The notes beneath the pieces are model-generated. The model was not told where the DNA came from and ran no database searches. It was given only the letters and a program-made list of their open reading frames with translations. DNA of 64,000 nt from Chaetoceros tenuissimus. Its lineage: Eukaryota; Bacillariophyta; Thalassiosirophyceae; Chaetocerotales; Chaetocerotaceae. The DNA lies in the NCBI GenBank assembly GCA_021927905.1, contig BLLK01000047.1, positions 682,001-746,000 on the forward strand, written 5' to 3'. This document shows, in pieces, positions 42,135 through 54,188 of this stretch. How positions within the stretch are numbered: position 1 is the stretch's first letter; each line of letters starts with the position of its first letter. The translations under genes and the position numbers were made by a program.

Positions 42135-44976
42135 CTAGGAAAAAGCATACGCAACCTTCAGAGATGCGGATATTGACCTATCATGATTTGTTGACTTCAT
42201 AAATTGGCTACTATCACTTGCTACAGCATCTTCAAGATATTGTAAGAAAGCACTTAACTTCTGCTTCTTTCTAGTATCAAAGTAATTAGTCTTGAGTGCT
42301 TCTATGCATTGAGGTAATAAGAGCATACCCCCGAATGAACGGACAACACCAAGGGATAACGGTGGTTTCATAATATCCAAACAGCCAGCAACAAAGTACC
42401 TCACCAAACCAGAGTCAATATTAGAGCCACTTGTAAGAGTCGCTTTAAATACAACAAATACATCGATTGCCAACCCCTTGGTGCAGATGATGAGAAGCAA
42501 TCTTAATGCCTGCTCTTTGATTGCATTCATCTTTTGGAAACCCAGCTCAGAGCTTGAATGATGGAGAAAATTGAACGCAATATCAATAGCTGGTTTGCGT
42601 AACAATGGATGATGATTGACAATTATTCTTGTAAGGGAAAGGATACCCGGCGCTGTACCTGGATAGGCAGCAGTATTGGGAAAGTCAGAATTACTGACTC
42701 TTTCCTTCGCCCACAGAAGAAATCCTTGTGCAACTATACTTGATTGCATACAGGAGCTACTGAGCTGCGCACCCACCGAAAGGTTTGAAGTATCCCCGCT
42801 TACTTCATCACTGGCAACTATTGTTACAATAGTATCAAGCTTTTCACACAATTTACTTCCATTCATGATAATCTACAAAAATATTGAGTTGTATGTGTGA
42901 CGCATGGTAACCACTAAAACATAAGGTACTCACATTAGTGAAATGATCAATCTTCTTTTTCTCATCGTCCTCTGTCAATTCCTGTAGACTCTCATCACTA
43001 TTCAATTCCCGTTCTGCCGCTAAGGCTGCCATTGCTAGCAACTTGGAACATTTTCGTTTTACGTCTTCTGATTTTGACCTATTCTTTCTCAAAAAGAGAG
43101 ACTTCAACAGATACTCCAGAACCAGTGGATGCTGTAGCAAAAGTTTACCTTGCTTCGTTTTCCCTTCCCTTGAGTTGTCCAAATTTGGATTGTAGAGTAG
43201 TTGGTCTAATATTTTGCTGTCAACTATAGAATTCCTTGCATAGTATACCAAGGCTTGAAGCAGACCAGTCTCAAAGCTATGCGAAATATGCCTTATCTTG
43301 GCAGTCTGGTCATGACCACTAGTATCATTGCGAAACGCACGTCGTTGCTTTTGATTAGATTCACTAGACATGACAGCAACATCAACTTTTCTCTTTTTCG
43401 TGAGTGGATTACTATCATCATTGTCCTTTGGTTTCACAATATGTTGAGTCATTTCCTCCTTTATTCTTTCCCATTTCCGTGTCGCCCTCTGAAGTCCAAG
43501 TGCTTTTGGACCACTCATGGACTTTGCTTTCACTTTTGATCTTGCAATAAGCTCATCCAATAGTTCAATGGCATAAATATAGGTATAGGCAGTGGTTGTA
43601 CTCTGTCGCTTCAAATCATTGACAATGGTATCTGCGCAATCAACCAACTCCAATTCTGCAGTGGTATCTTTCCCTCCATTGATTGCCAATTTAGCTAATA
43701 AAGTCAATTCACTTGACAGCATTCCATGAAAAACTTCAAAATAATCACTCTGATTAATCCGTTTGGCAATCTCACGATGATACCCTCGTTTACTAATGTT
43801 TTGCAATAACAAAGTCAAGAGGGCAGAATCAGGATGTTCAGCCGATAAATCAATTAACAATCGTCTCCAGCGTTCATGCTCCATCATTTCTTCAAAAAAC
43901 ATACGTTCCCTTTTGGATAAATTAAAAATAGTCTGTTGAGCTTCATCTGTAAAGTTCTGTTTGGCAGTTTTGGCAATAATATTTTCCATCAAATTTTTAA
44001 CTTCGTGAGTATGAGCCGTGTGCAATTTTTGAATGTCAAATTTATCAATGAGAGAATTCCCATATGATTCATTGGCTTGTTTCATGTCTATAAGCCATTT
44101 CGATAATATACCACAAATAGCTGGTTGATTTGTAAAACTTGCCACAAGTTTGGTTGCTGCTGCTGGACCATTGGATTGAAATAATTTGAAAAAATGCGAT
44201 GTTACATCAGTTTCCATGACGGAATCAGGTTTGGAAATGAATGCATCTGCGTTTTCAAGTGCAACTTGTTCAGGATCTTTTGGTGGTTCTTCTGGTTCTT
44301 GAGGAGATGCTTCAGGCGATGGAGATCTTTGTGGTGAGACAGGCTCTTTCATTGGTTCATCTGTATATTCATGTGACGGTGATGTAGGTTGGTTATCATC
44401 ATCTTCTGGTGCAGGTGTTACATCTTGTTCATCCATTGGCGGTTCATCCGTTGTATCTTGTTCATATGCTTGTTCAGTCTCTTCTTCTTCCGGTGGTTCC
44501 ATAAATTTATCAGGTTCTTCCCATTGTGTGACTCCAGTAACTGAATTGTAAAAATAGTCTCTGCCCTCATCATCTTGGTATCTTATCCATTCAATTTCTC
44601 CCTCCGTTGGTGCTTCAGGATCTTTAGGTTCTTCAGTAGCATCTACTGGTTGCTCCATTGTCTCTTCATTGTTTGTGTCATCTTGTACAGGTTCATTATT
44701 GCTTTCATCTGGTTGCTCTTCCATACTGACATTACCATCTTGATCCGGTTCAGGAGTTGCATCATTAGGTTCTGCATCATCGTATTGGCCATCATAAGTA
44801 TCTGATTGGCCTTGATCTTCTTCTTCTGCTGCTTCTTCTTCTTCTTCTACTTCATCTGGATTCTTGATGATGGCTCCTTCAGGTACTTCCCATGCTGTCT
44901 CTTCGCTTGCTTCATTGTAGTAGTACTTTCTACCCTCATCATCTTCATATTCCAGCCACACATTTGGATCCGACAT
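42135..44976 (-). CDS. Tandem WW domains fused to a TH1/NELF-C/D protein
   Basis: Two exons, 44976-42934 and 42872-42135, joined in phase, encode about 926 residues. WW1 (about 6-35) has WLEYEDDEGRKYYYNEASEE...TAWEVP (quoted in part) and WW2 (about 127-158) has WIRYQDDEGRDYFYNSV...TQWEEP. Between and after them are acidic, Pro-rich linkers to about 240. From about 240 to the end the protein matches the TH1 (NELF-C/D) family: SVMETDVTSHFFKLFQ, ERWRRLLIDLSAEHPDS, the late LVRYFVAGCLDIMKPPLS (compare LIRYFVTEVLDVI in NELF-C/D), and a final helical block. NELF-C/D is a subunit of the complex that pauses RNA polymerase II. It would act in the nucleus. A WW pair fused to it is unusual; WW pairs bind Pro-rich or phospho-Ser-Pro motifs. 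Confidence 0.82.
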
Positions 44977-46188: not shown

Positions 46189-49100
46189 CTATTTGGTTTG
46201 AATCTCCTCAATCCTTGCAGATATATATTCACGGCTGTATCGAAAATTTACAATGTATCTCGTCTGCCTGTTTTCTTCAGATCTCCTTCGATTCATCAAT
46301 ATTGCAAAGTCATCATATGTCTTTGCTGCATCACTTGCAAGAGCAAATTCACCAAGATAAATCGTAACATTGTCTAGTACGATTTTTGCAGTATACTTAT
46401 TGTTTCGTTTGTTAAAGGTAACTCCATTGAATCCATTGAATTTCCGTCCCAGTTTTCTGAAATTATGAACTTGTCCTTTGGCGTCACGTTCATAGGAAAG
46501 ATTTCTATCTCCATATAGTAAAGTATCAAGTGGCTCGCCATATCGTTGACTTATCTCTTGCATTGCTGGTACATTTGATGCTGAAATTGTGTTTGAAGTT
46601 TCCTTTGGAACTTGACTCTGTTGCTCTTGTAACTCTTTCTTGTGATCTGCTAACTTTTGTCTCATTGTGAAAAGTGGAGAATCAGTGTATTCACGTCCAA
46701 AAGTCTTTCTGTAATACTCCTTGAACTCTTCCGAATCCTTTGGCATGGAGGGTTTCCAGGAATCGATCCACTCCTGGAACTTTTTCGAGTCCTTTGGCGA
46801 GCACTGCGGAAGAGACATGATGAGCTTCAAGTACCACTCGCAGAACTTTTCAGAGTCTTTGAGTGGATGCTCCATGATCCACTTGATATACTCAGGAGAA
46901 TTCTTTGGCACACCCTTCGGAGCTGTCTCTAGCCACTTCAAGAACTGCTCACTATCCTTCATACGCTGTGTTAGCTTTTTGTACCACTTTTTGTACTCGT
47001 CTGAATCCTTTGGCTTGCACTGCGGTAGAGACTTGATGAGCTTCAAGTACCACTCGCAGAAATCAGGAGATCCTTTGAGTGGATGCTCCAAAATCCACTC
47101 AATATACTCAGGAGAATTCTTTGGCACACCCTGTGGAGCCGACTCGAGCCATTTCAAGAACTGCTCACTATCCTTCATACACTGTGGAAGATTCTCTTTC
47201 CACTGTACATACTCCGGAGAATCTTTGTCCATACATTGCGGAAGAATTGCACCGGCAGCCCAGAAACGAGTCGCAAGATTAAGTTCATCCTCTGTTGGCC
47301 AAATACTGGTATATTCTTTCTTATCAGCCAACCGAAAAAGAGCAATGTAGGTACGAAAGATCTGACGAATGTCCTCTTCTTTTGCAAATAGAGCAAGTAA
47401 TTTGTGGGGATGACAGCAAGACTCGACAATCAACTTTGTTGCATCCTCTAGATCCTTCCCTAGATCCTTCGCAAAATCCTTTGTCCATGCGCCATGCTTC
47501 ACTATGAAGACTTCCTTTTTGCAAAGCTTAACCAATTCTTCAAAGGTTTCAAGAATGAGCTTCTCTGTGTCACGGCGAAATTTAGCGTATTTCTCTGCAC
47601 TTTCGAATTTTCTGCAGTCCTCTGGAAGCTTCACAAAGACCTTCTCAAATTCATCTGTAGCCGAAATGTCTTTGAAGGCCTGAGCTTGCAACTTCACTGG
47701 ATTGATGTCGAAAAGAAGCATGTTGAAGTCTTCGAGGGTAAATTCTTCACTGAGTAATCCATTCGCTTTCAAAATTAGCATAATTGTTTTTAAAAGTAAA
47801 TTGATGGAAGCGGATTCAAAACAGTTTCCACCTTTATTGCTTTGCTCTAGCGAGGTCTTGATGATATTTAGTGTTGGAAAATGAAGCAAAATGATGATGA
47901 GAGCTTTCTCAAAGTCAACTTGAGTAACAAAGGAATGTACGATATTGTCCATAATTGACAATTCTTTGTAAGTAGAGTCTTCTCCGTAATCGGCCACATA
48001 CTGCTTATAGGAACCCGTGAGACTTGCGATATTCATGATTTCTTTCCTGACACGCTCCGATCCTGTTACTGGGTCCAGTATTGAAATATCAAAAGCTTGC
48101 TTCAATTCTTGGAGTATTGTGGATGCTTTTTGATAATCCTCATCCTTTGCGAGTTCAGCCCTTCTCGCCTTAGCTGCCTCTTTTTTAGCAGCTTTCTTCT
48201 CAGAATCATCCCCTCCCTTTGGCTTTTTCTTGGTCCGGCTAGTAGTAGATTGCTTCTCTTTCCGCTTACTTTTCTTGCTACTTGAACTTGAAGCAGGACT
48301 GATAAATATGGAATTGTAAGTACTTGCGCATATTATAACTTTGATTGCAGAGCACGTAGGTACAGGATACTTACATTGTCCCACCGGAGTAATTCTCATT
48401 GTTCTCATCAATTGCATTCTCATCTACTTGTTTGCGTTTGCGCTTTTTCTTGCCACCACCACGAAGATTGACTTTAAGGTAAAGGGTAGATTCTTTCTGA
48501 ATGTTGCAGTCTGACAAGATATGTTCATCTTCAAGCCGCTTTCCAGCAAAGATGAGAAACTGTCGGTCTGGAGGAATTCCCACCTTATCCTGAATCTTGG
48601 TCTTTACATTGTCAATGGTGTTAGACGGCTCAGCATCAAGAGTGATGTTCTTTCCAGTAAGGGTTTTGACGAAAATCTGCATTCGATTACTTTGGTAAAT
48701 AACTTCTTCTTCTTCGTTTCCGAAACCAATAGTGAAACGTTTCAGAATAGAAAGAAGAACCTCAGTGTTCATCATTGGTGAAAGAATGTTCTGATCTCGA
48801 TACTCTCTCATCTCTTTTAGAATCAATGATGGTTGGTATTGTGAAAGTTCATGGAAGGCTCTTTGGATTTCGAATACATCAAATAGTTTCTTGACAGGGA
48901 GAATGCTGCATGATTGTATAATAATGTAGATAGCTTTCCACCTCATGTCAGTTGCATACATGCATGGATCATGTTGTTTCCGTATCTTATTTACATCCTT
49001 GCGAAACTCTTGAAGTTCATACTTCTTCTCATCAAACTCAATCTCAATATCAAACCCAAACTCTTCATTGATCATTTCTTGTGTCAATCTACTCAATCTT

Positions 49101-49276
49101 TCTGTAAGTGTTAGAGCACCAATTCCAAGCAAGAGAGCCGCCCAAAGTATTGGCATTTGCAGAATCGGATGAAGTGCTGCAAAGAGATGATCAAAGACGA
49201 TGAAGAGCTTCCAAGTCTCTATCGACTGTAACAAGAAGAGAAGTAATGCCGGCCAAGCAAATCCGTGCACAAACAT
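46189..49276 (-). CDS. Membrane-anchored protein with internal ubiquitin, Trp-rich repeats and C-terminal AP2-like DNA-binding domain
   Basis: Two exons, 49276-48375 and 48298-46189, give 1,003 residues (first ATG at 49276; the open frame to 49312 has only TTG). Residues 1-60 hold two hydrophobic segments ([20 protein letters not shown] and [15 protein letters not shown]), a membrane anchor. Residues 199-274 are a complete ubiquitin fold, [20 protein letters not shown] to VNLRGG, exactly 76 long. It is followed by GKKKRKRKQ, a likely nuclear signal. Lys48, Lys63 and Ile44 are kept; Arg42, Val70 and Arg72 are changed (Phe, Lys, Asn). From about 660 to 850, imperfect repeats carry DS-E-F/Y-x-x-W; one 72-residue block recurs with 216 bases spacing. 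The last 85 residues have [17 protein letters not shown] and [20 protein letters not shown], typical of AP2. Release by cleavage after LRGG is a hypothesis. Confidence 0.82.
46660..47250 (-). repeat. In-gene Trp-rich repeat array (72-residue higher-order unit)
   Basis: On the coding strand, units of the form DSxxFxxWxxxxP occur at 23-25-residue spacing. A larger block of 72 residues (216 bases) recurs; for instance ATATACTCAGGAGAATTC occurs at 46886 and 47102. The block carries LKWLES/[14 protein letters not shown] and [18 protein letters not shown]. The units are divergent enough to be old but the 216-base spacing is exact. Confidence 0.8.
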
Positions 49277-51541: not shown

Positions 51542-54188
51542 TTACTCCTCCTCCTCAAGAGAAGTCTTTCCTTCCATCACTGCTTTCATTTTCCTCATAC
51601 AAGTCGATATTATCTTATCATCCAATTTCCAACATGTCACAGTCGCGCTCTTAGCTTTGACCGTGGCGAGATACTTTGACTCTTCGTTGCTTGCAACTTC
51701 GTTACCAAAAAAGTTCAGTCTATCCAAAGTAGCACTTTCGCCTGATTCTAATTCTATTTCTGTAATTGGACAATGAATTGAGTTACGATATTTTAGACAC
51801 TCTTCAGGAACAAAACCAATCTTGTAAACTTACCACACTCTCCTTCTGAAATCACATACAAAGCATCGCCTTCAGTATCCTTGGAAGTGATGATTTCATT
51901 TTGGTTGAATGTCGCTTCTTCCATAGCAGAAGCAAATTCTTCAATCTCCTCATTCTGAAAGGATTTGAGCTCAGGTATATTCTTCATCATATGAACAAGC
52001 TGCTTCTTACCAGCGCCATCAAGCATGATTGCTTTCAAAACTTTTCTATCTAATGACCAAAGCTTTGCATCCGTTGTGGCAGTGATCGAAGCTGCACGTG
52101 GAGTACTATATAAGAGCGCCAATTCTCCAAAAGATGGATGTACTTTTTTTTCTTTGCTTGCATGATATGTATGAACAAGTTTTCCAGCAATGGATCTTTC
52201 TGATTCCGTAATTACATTACGATAAGAATCTCTTCCTCCGACTCGTACTTCAAAATCTCCCTCTTCAATAATGTAAAATTTATCACCCTCATCTCCTTGT
52301 TTGATTACTCGATCACCTTTTTTGACATTTACTGGTTGCATAACATCATGAACTTCTCGTAGTTGAGAAGGAGTCATACTTTGTAGCATTACACACCCTC
52401 TAGAAGCAGTCATCAATACCTTTCTTTCAGCTTCGGTTTTTTCATGATAAAGATCTGAAAGATCAACACTTCCTTCATCTGATATATCCAGAAGAGACTC
52501 ATGTAATATGCTCTTCATCTCTGTCAATCTCCTATCCAGCTTCTTGACGTCCCCACTTTGACGTGCATCAATTGTCAAATTATCGGGGATATCAGTCGTC
52601 AAATTTTTAATACTTGCTCTTGATCTGAATGACTTAGCAATCTCAGTGTTAATTTCATCTATATAAATACAAATGATGGTGATATCATCTGTGCGTAATT
52701 CGAAGTTAAGCCACAACTCGTACGCTTCATCTACTACCGCTTGACAAGCTAAATGGCAAATAGTTCGTTTTGAGAACCTGTTCAACAATATATGTGAAGT
52801 AGATAAAGAATGAATCTTACCTTCTAATGGATCCTTGAAAGATGCGCAGATATCAATAACACTTTGATTGGTCAAGAACTCAAATACCCCATCACTTGCC
52901 AAAATGATCATTTCATCTCCTCGCTCAAGCTCTCTAGTCACCATTTCTGGATCAGCAATCACACCAAGCTCTTCAGCAAGAGAATCTCCAATACTTCTAG
53001 AAAATGCAGTACCAGGGAAGTCCATCGTTGGATGCCAAACTCTGATGGAACAAAAAGTTATTTTTGGTACTTGCTCAATATTCAGTTTTTGAAAACGATT
53101 GAAGAATGAGTCTTACCTTGGTGGATCACCCCCTTCATCAATTTCTTCACCTAGGTCCAAATCTGTTCCTTCTTCATTAAACCTAACAGGCTGCAAACCT
53201 TCAATTTGGTCAAGTGACAAGATTCTAGCACCTTTGGAAAGAATTCGCTGTCTTTCACCCTTTCTATACGGTGTTTGATCCTGAGATAAAGGAACAGCAC
53301 GATATTGCGCTCCGCTTTCGAAAGGAACAGTTTTCTCACGACCTTGTGGCTTATCAACACGTTTACCCAAAATCGCTCTACTATCTCCAACATTTGAAAT
53401 AGTAACTCTATTTCGATTTCCTTGAAAAAAAGCAGAAATAGCAGTAGTCCCACTTAGAGTATCTTCAATTTCTTTGTTGCGATGCATATTCTTGTTTACG
53501 ACCAAATGACTATCGAGCATTGCTTTTTGAACTTGCGATTTATTTAATTCAACCTCAATAGCGGATTCTACACCCATCGTTGCATTCTCCGCCTTTTGCT
53601 TTCTTTTTACATTCTTTACTTCTTTCTCAAGAGTCCTAGAGATATATTTCTTCGCAAATTGTGCACATTTGTCTATGAACAGCATCACAAGAATGTTAGC
53701 AAAAAGGCTTCTTTTGTCTTTTCTAGAGATACCAAGAGTAAAGATCGTCGGAACTTACCACCATCTCTTCCATGTCCATCAAAAACAGCAAAGAAAGCAT
53801 CAGCTCTTTCATTTGCAAAGTCTTCTGCAATGGTATATGTATCCTGATTTGGTTTGTTTTCATCTTTTAATCATGGTGTGAGAATGAAAGTACGCACTTG
53901 AGAACACTAAAAATATTGCATGCTTAAAATCTTACCGTCTGGGTAGTATCCCCTTTGACTCATGTAGGCATATCTTATTTTTAATCCTCCTAGTTCTAGC
54001 TCCTCAGTTTCCTCGCAAACATGAAGTCTAGCAAGGGCTACTTCGTCAGTACAGATATCCCTAGGTTTGATGTAGGTGATCGATGTTCTATGCTGTGCAG
54101 TAGGTCTCTTCACTTCACCATTCAGCAGTTCCTTAGGAAGACCAGAGAGGGTTTCCGGATGCATTTGCTTGGATGTACATATCCCCAT
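51542..54188 (-). CDS. PP2C protein phosphatase with two C-terminal cyclic-nucleotide-binding domains
   Basis: Six exons, 54188-53936, 53863-53759, 53672-53117, 53041-52821, 52748-51834 and 51759-51542, in phase, give 755 residues. MGICTSKQ is a myristoylation/palmitoylation start. PP2C motifs in order: FAVFDGHGRDG, SGTTAISAFF, NVGDSRAILGK, FSRSIGD, LASDGVFEFLTNQSV and TDDITIICI. The metal-binding Asp residues are present. The first cNMP domain has the phosphate cassette FGELALLYSTPRAASI, identical in style to functional PKA/PKG sites. The second, ending ISEGECG...EIELESGESATLDRL, lacks a clear PRAA cassette. In plants, PP2C is found fused to cNMP domains plus a kinase; here no kinase follows. 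It would be a cyclic-nucleotide-regulated membrane-attached Ser/Thr phosphatase. Confidence 0.88.

Follow-up and report, generated by a model that had tools for sequence, protein, structure and literature searches.

A ubiquitin module and basic hinge between membrane-type N-termini and nuclear-type tails in a five-locus gene family of the diatom Chaetoceros tenuissimus

Ubiquitin fusions are known chiefly for delivering ribosomal proteins and ubiquitin itself. Described here is a gene that places ubiquitin behind a membrane-type anchor and ahead of a protein of DNA-binding type; it is found on a 64,000-nucleotide stretch of Chaetoceros tenuissimus DNA (contig BLLK01000047.1, positions 682,001 to 746,000, 39.2% G+C), the whole of which is termed here the window. 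The protein proposed for this gene resembles the membrane-tethered transcription factors SREBP, ATF6 and Spt23/Mga2 in being a membrane precursor of a DNA-binding protein; those factors, however, are freed by site-1 and site-2 proteases or by the proteasome, whereas here the cut would follow a fused ubiquitin. In its central part it is most like the ribosomal precursor Ub-eS31 (RPS27A/Ubi3; host copy at C19:508k), where a complete ubiquitin (Ub) ending in LRGG is likewise followed by Gly-Lys-Lys and further basic residues. In both Ub-eS31 and Ub-eL40, however, ubiquitin is N-terminal, whereas in the window 198 codons precede it in frame.

Other arrangements of ubiquitin with unlike partners are on record (here and below, statements on cited papers refer to the portions of their text available). 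In algae, N-terminal, C-terminal and internal fusions include ubiquitin joined to an integral membrane protein, to an HMG box and to actin (Sibbald et al. 2019, PMC6332867); fusions with membrane proteins are reported there from 87 species besides B. natans, and internal or membrane fusions from both algae and fungi (PMC6332867). As in the window, ubiquitin is thus joined to membrane or DNA-binding-type partners, sometimes internally; unlike the present family, neither a membrane-ubiquitin-AP2 order nor a hinge with multiple partners is named in the available portion of that paper. The split-ubiquitin membrane two-hybrid, in which proteases cutting after ubiquitin free LexA-VP16 from a membrane bait (PMC3689660), has the same order of membrane part, ubiquitin and transcription factor, but is engineered and splits its ubiquitin over two chains. 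Finally, polyproteins of cytopathogenic pestiviruses carry internal ubiquitin with S27a residues, and in a cattle pestivirus host hydrolases cut after an internal copy from which the first three residues are missing (PMC8310069)--a natural internal ubiquitin used as a cut site, as is proposed here, but within a viral polyprotein, where the partner is a viral protein rather than a nuclear factor.

Internal ubiquitins are therefore already known; what appears to be new is the membrane-ubiquitin-basic-AP2 order and a hinge shared by otherwise unlike parts. A preliminary description of this DNA had known of no protein with that order. Neither the order nor a ubiquitin hinge common to unlike N-termini and tails was found in the full-text literature, subscription papers and preprints lying outside that search. 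The word 'ubiquitin' is absent from the main text of the Chaetoceros tenuissimus papers examined.

Parts of the window gene

Searches for relatives were made within one genome (41.03 Mb, 68 contigs), using the window tail and ubiquitin as queries. They place the hinge, Ub-GG-GKK...VDE, at five loci: the window, C32b (2,592k), C32a (2,322k), C48 (1,418k) and C18 (350k). A related protein without ubiquitin, C27, is also referred to below. The parts of the window gene, whose two exons (49276-48375 and 48298-46189) join in frame into 1003 codons, are as follows:

46189-49276, minus strand: whole gene, two exons, 1003 residues; an open frame, its intron place common with C27
48375-49276, minus strand: exon 1, comprising the membrane N-terminus, ubiquitin and the basic hinge
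49094-49276, minus strand: hydrophobic N-terminus, residues 1-61, probably two membrane segments (Kyte-Doolittle)
48683-49276, minus strand: N-terminus A, residues 1-198, found as a single copy in the genome
48455-48682, minus strand: ubiquitin ending in LRGG, residues 199-274 (PF00240, E 2.4e-22; aligned with host and family ubiquitins)
48419-48454, minus strand: basic hinge, residues 275-286; the proposed cut lies directly before it; GG-GKK invariant in five copies and host Ub-eS31
48422-48468, minus strand: divergence break; difference from the C32 copies 24% on the left and 4-5% on the right
48299-48374, minus strand: intron, 76 nucleotides, GTAAGT...ATCAG (GT-AG)
46189-48298, minus strand: exon 2, tail T1, with a Lys-rich start, conserved middle, Trp repeats and AP2-like end
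46790-47186, minus strand: Trp-rich repeats, 216-nucleotide period, 1.8 copies
46291-46434, minus strand: AP2-like domain, residues 923-970; below the Pfam AP2 threshold; profile match to plant AP2/ERF structures

This order had been read from the letters alone in the preliminary description, and its account of the probable membrane segments, the 76-residue ubiquitin, the adjoining basic stretch, the intron and the Trp-rich repeats is borne out. The intron is supported without recourse to RNA because C27 has one of 69 nucleotides at the same place and phase, with both of its exons open; the window intron is also identical at 73 of 76 positions to those of C32a and C32b. Hydrophobic windows of 19 residues fall within residues 1-29 and 26-61. 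N-terminus A is open over its 198 codons in this frame only (the other two hold 13 and 16 stops), and in a Markov simulation of matching dinucleotide content none of 20,000 random sequences stayed open over that length; a genome search with it at E up to 0.1 returned the self match only. The Pfam ubiquitin match covers residues 201-270 (profile positions 1-70 of 72), and the module is identical to human ubiquitin at 58 of 76 residues and to host ubiquitin at 61. Directly after LRGG the stretch GKKKRKRKQ begins at residue 275. Two results for the window protein were set aside: an AlphaFold model of exon 1 made with no alignment (mean pLDDT 41, helices at residues 3-17, 21-39 and 42-73) was of low confidence and not used, and a Pfam match to Med14 (E 0.04) fell below its cut-off.

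For the AP2-like domain the preliminary description holds as to homology, the Pfam match staying below the domain threshold. Pfam AP2 (PF00847) scores the whole protein at 14.5 bits (E 0.044) and the isolated domain at 18.5 bits (E 0.0025) against a cut-off of 33.3; such a weak score is usual in this genome, since none of seven AP2 places scored passes the cut-off. A 12-domain profile--which includes the window's own domain, draws 7 of its 12 sequences from other proteins of this genome, and has 10 members that individually match Pfam AP2 at E up to 1--matches the plant AP2/ERF structures WRI1, TEM1, ERF096 and ATERF1, the best at 9.4e-10. Judged by this profile the domain is homologous to AP2/ERF, but divergent, and may bind DNA. 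A single-sequence AlphaFold model (mean pLDDT 57), in which the middle helix expected of AP2 was missing, was too poor to be used. Only two AP2/ERF genes are reported for another diatom, P. tricornutum (PMC4827209). In the neighbouring repeats, 10 Trp residues were counted over 178 residues; because the array aligns in more than one register among the window, C32a, C32b and C27, its copy number seems to vary.

One hinge, three N-termini and three tails

Within the family the hinge links three hydrophobic N-termini to three tails (T1, T2 and T3, of which T1 and T2 are distantly related), and in the window, C48 and C18 these three combinations are in frame, with no stop before ubiquitin. A degenerate LRGG-GKK pattern occurs at seven places in the genome, namely the five loci, host Ub-eS31 and one other (its reversed-pattern control gave two). 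NCBIfam models applied to the five proteins returned only a sub-threshold Rad23 match to the ubiquitin-like part in three of them. Searches found no likeness among the three N-termini, except for about 11 residues directly before ubiquitin in the window and C18.

The C48 gene is an open frame of 1160 residues over two GT-AG introns (61 and 62 nucleotides), encoding membrane N-terminus B, ubiquitin, a basic linker and tail T2; in the genome search C48 and C32b were the only places with N-terminus B, which did not match N-terminus A. T2 is 32% identical to T1 over the best stretch and 24% over 717 columns (BLASTP 2e-45 for that single comparison). Units containing Trp recur along it, and AP2-like sequence occurs in it twice, in degenerate form, scoring 26.2 bits with the 12-domain profile, which includes no C48 sequence; the best of 500 shuffles reached 5.7. 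The positive charges after the last membrane stretch of the C48 protein, KTFRIRRDERKGK, suggest, by the positive-inside rule for membrane protein topology, that its ubiquitin would be cytosolic. C18 has an N-terminus of a third kind, in which two stretches are hydrophobic, ahead of tail T3, which was not recovered by the T1 search and next to which an open frame carries DUF6824.

The T3 family also occurs without ubiquitin at C48:814000-819500, where DUF6824 recurs and the T3 relative has long internal repeats, and at C27:698500-703000. Separately, C48:1415300-1420300 and C32:2589000-2594800 share a 1.7-kb segment at 91% identity. It starts in upstream sequence, takes in N-terminus B and ubiquitin, reaches the linker and ends at the hinge, as if anchor, ubiquitin and upstream DNA had travelled as a single cassette and been joined to two different tails. 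A viral source for these parts was considered and rejected: T1 gave one AP2-like stretch in a 143-kb viral contig (47% identical over 36 residues to the window's domain), N-termini A and B gave no relative among the viral contigs, and N-terminus C, T2 and T3 lay outside that scan.

Copies diverge from one another close to the end of ubiquitin, which lies 228 nucleotides from its start. Over 700 aligned nucleotides from that start, the difference between the window and C32b is 24% as far as +215 and 4.5% beyond; the best break between the window and the C32 copies is at +215 or +241 (support 214-260 for C32b and 215-258 for C32a), and window-C32b synonymous divergence is 0.79 in ubiquitin versus 0.11 in the tail (22/44 versus 45/424 sites, p 2e-9). 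C48 and C32b differ by 8% to +273 and by 63% beyond, and C18 parts from the window at +240, its break with C48 lying at +269. Breaks in six comparisons, which are not independent, thus span 13 nucleotides before to 45 after the ubiquitin end. On the 5' side, the window and C18 share 33 nucleotides before ubiquitin, and the match between the window and C48 begins at the ubiquitin ATG.

Relatives that lack ubiquitin show the tails on their own. C27 is an open T1 protein of 810 residues whose basic N-terminus, MSSHNKLKPSRKRSR, is its own and starts 52 residues before the point where the window hinge joins; in the T3 relatives at C48:815k and C27:700k (a fragment) the first in-frame Met stands at the place where C18 departs from the hinge. 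A genome-wide ubiquitin search found no match near these T1 and T3 loci. There is also a broken copy of T1 without ubiquitin at C21. Because such relatives of two tails start at the hinge or about 50 residues before it, a cut after LRGG would yield roughly a stand-alone protein.

As to the origin of the hinge, derivation of its ubiquitin from the Ub-eS31 gene, which the linker resembles, was rejected as unsupported by synonymous sites: family ubiquitins lie at synonymous distances of 0.41-0.79 from eL40 versus 0.80-1.31 from eS31. The host eS31 gene, moreover, has frames that break after ubiquitin codon 10, as for an intron, whereas the family has no such break. The preliminary description took the basic stretch for a nuclear signal; the stretch is present, but may have been inherited from an eS31-type fusion rather than built for that purpose, although the ubiquitin codons lend such a source no support.

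Cleavage, retention or chance fusion

The reading favoured here, tentatively and at somewhat less than even odds, is that ubiquitin and its short basic linker form a protease-cleavable, conjugation-disabled hinge between a membrane N-terminus, which is held, and a nuclear-type tail, which is freed by a cut after Gly-Gly. General host deubiquitinating proteases would most likely make this cut, as they do in ribosomal ubiquitin fusions, leaving a membrane-held ubiquitin ending in a free Gly-Gly, while the tail would gain the new basic N-terminus GKKKRKRKQ, which could carry it to the nucleus. E1 would be kept from passing the membrane-held ubiquitin to other proteins by the loss of Arg42 and, in those copies where they are gone, of Arg72 or Arg74. 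If the cut is constitutive, one gene would give two proteins; if it is regulated, it would act as a switch; the data fit either. This hinge reading is supported by C48, because its open gene repeats the order with another membrane N-terminus. The split-ubiquitin reporter and the pestivirus polyprotein cited above serve as precedents, and the ubiquitin of C32a, like that of the cattle pestivirus, is short of three initial residues, here those of the host type.

Release by a cut after LRGG, as the preliminary description had proposed, is supported because the Leu73-x-Gly-Gly-Gly-Lys-Lys junction is conserved and because the ubiquitin-less relatives begin at or near the hinge. All five copies, like host Ub-eS31, have Leu73, Gly75, Gly76 and Gly77-Lys-Lys unchanged, with Gly at P1', so that each copy has an uninterrupted Gly-Gly|X junction in which X is not proline. 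Changes in the window relative to host ubiquitin include, as first noticed, R42F, V70K and R72N, and also H68Y and L71V; Leu8 and Ile44 are kept. UBA1 grips ubiquitin through Arg42, Arg72 and Arg74 (PMC12355090). Arg42 is lost from all five copies and, over codons 5-76, is the sole position changed in the window (Phe), C18 (Cys) and C48 (Ile) alike; Arg72 is lost from the window (Asn) and C48 (His), and Arg74 from C18 (Gln)--i.e., one or the other is lost in three of five, Arg74 itself being kept in four. The window's LRGG is thus internal and, with R42F and R72N, is not a conjugation-ready diglycine with its E1-contact arginines. Across the window, C18 and C48, the three arginine positions are changed in 6 of 9 cases versus 38 of 219 for other positions (p 0.002; p 0.005 to 0.028 when two lineages are counted).

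Several points weigh against this reading. Arg72 is used by USP and OTU proteases (PMC11130253), so that Asn72 in the window and His72 in C48 weaken the case for release; C18 has Gln74, and the Ile44 patch is altered in the window (V70K, H68Y) and in C18 (Arg70, Tyr68). The arginine test was chosen after the data were seen, on lineages that are not fully independent: the window and C18 share Val34, Tyr68 and Val71 and so are partly linked. The membrane segments of the window protein are predicted from hydropathy, and N-terminus A may act as a signal sequence, putting ubiquitin in a lumen. Three of the five copies appear to be damaged: in C32a no in-frame ATG precedes ubiquitin, in C32b the membrane part is out of frame with ubiquitin, and in C18 the tail has a frame break. 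Pfam AP2 gives no match in C48 at E up to 0.5, and tail T3 lacks AP2.

Some of these points favour a different account, rated unlikely, in which ubiquitin is an uncut ubiquitin-like module and the protein either stays on the membrane or is extracted by Cdc48/p97 and partly degraded. Yeast Spt23/Mga2 provide the model for such extraction. The changes R72N and V70K (window), His72 (C48) and Gln74 (C18) lessen the likeness to a protease substrate, and Ile44, Leu8 and Lys48 are kept in the four tabulated copies (window, C18, C48 and C32b). Yet all five copies also keep Gly75-Gly76 and the following Gly-Lys-Lys, for which an uncut module has no known need, and RLRGG is intact in two of them (C32a and C32b).

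Somewhat less probable still is that these are recent chimeras with no settled function, the ubiquitin stretch having served as a patch of homology for recombination between unrelated genes, most of whose products decay. The break points at the end of ubiquitin or in the linker, the damaged copies and the single occurrence of N-terminus A would fit this, as would the AP2 part, whose ratio of non-synonymous to synonymous changes per site (dN/dS), 0.71 for window-C27 and 0.68 in a second comparison (p 0.28 and 0.12), is indistinguishable from neutral and so also counts against the hinge reading. Elsewhere, however, constraint is evident. Over ubiquitin codons 11-76, dN/dS is 0.39 for window-C18 (15.5/43.8 synonymous versus 25.5/154.2 non-synonymous sites changed, p 0.011), 0.29 for window-C48 (16.5/43.7 versus 21.5/154.3, p 0.002) and 0.17 for window-host eL40 (22/45 versus 19/153, p 8e-7), and it ranges from 0.09 to 0.46 among ten family pairs. 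Tail T1 has dN/dS 0.37 between the window and C27 over 620 codons (p 1e-17), with 0.28 in its middle part, and N-terminus B has 0.54 between C48 and C32b (p 0.012). C48 and the window are also open throughout, the latter including its 198 N-terminal codons. Constraint on the family ubiquitin is nonetheless far less than on real ubiquitin--host eL40 and eS31 show no amino-acid change over the same 66 codons--and this, too, weighs against the favoured hinge.

That the true start is ubiquitin's own ATG (present in four of five copies), giving an ordinary N-terminal fusion beneath a separate or vestigial upstream gene, as the out-of-frame membrane part of C32b might suggest, is highly improbable given that this part is in frame without a stop in the window, C48 and C18 and that C32a has lost the ubiquitin ATG.

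Other proteins were seen in passing. In the window, one minus-strand protein at 42853-44976 combines WW domains with a TH1 match (presumably NELF-C/D), and a minus-strand frame at 51793-53025 combines PP2C phosphatase and cyclic-nucleotide-binding domains. At C41:146500-148500 lies a ubiquitin-like protein with an N-terminal hydrophobic leader and a ...SAATFPQAPAF... motif, in which no C-terminal diglycine was seen in frame and which resembles the ubiquitin-like proteins of plastids, presumably those of the SELMA type; at C27:2334191-2337274, four ubiquitin-like matches in frames of 324-344 residues fall within about 3 kb and may form a tandem array.

What a cleavable hinge would mean

If the cut occurs, the hinge would allow nuclear proteins held at a membrane to be released with no protease dedicated to the task. 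If the favoured reading is true, this would also be a case in nature of ubiquitin retained as a cleavage site as its E1 contacts go, with two recognition codes separated. A bolder extension, considered rather improbable, is that the family is a natural counterpart of the split-ubiquitin reporter: an E1-blind but cleavable ubiquitin would hold nuclear factors at membranes, the same hinge would be reused for different membrane sensors and nuclear proteins, and a regulated cut would serve as the signalling step.

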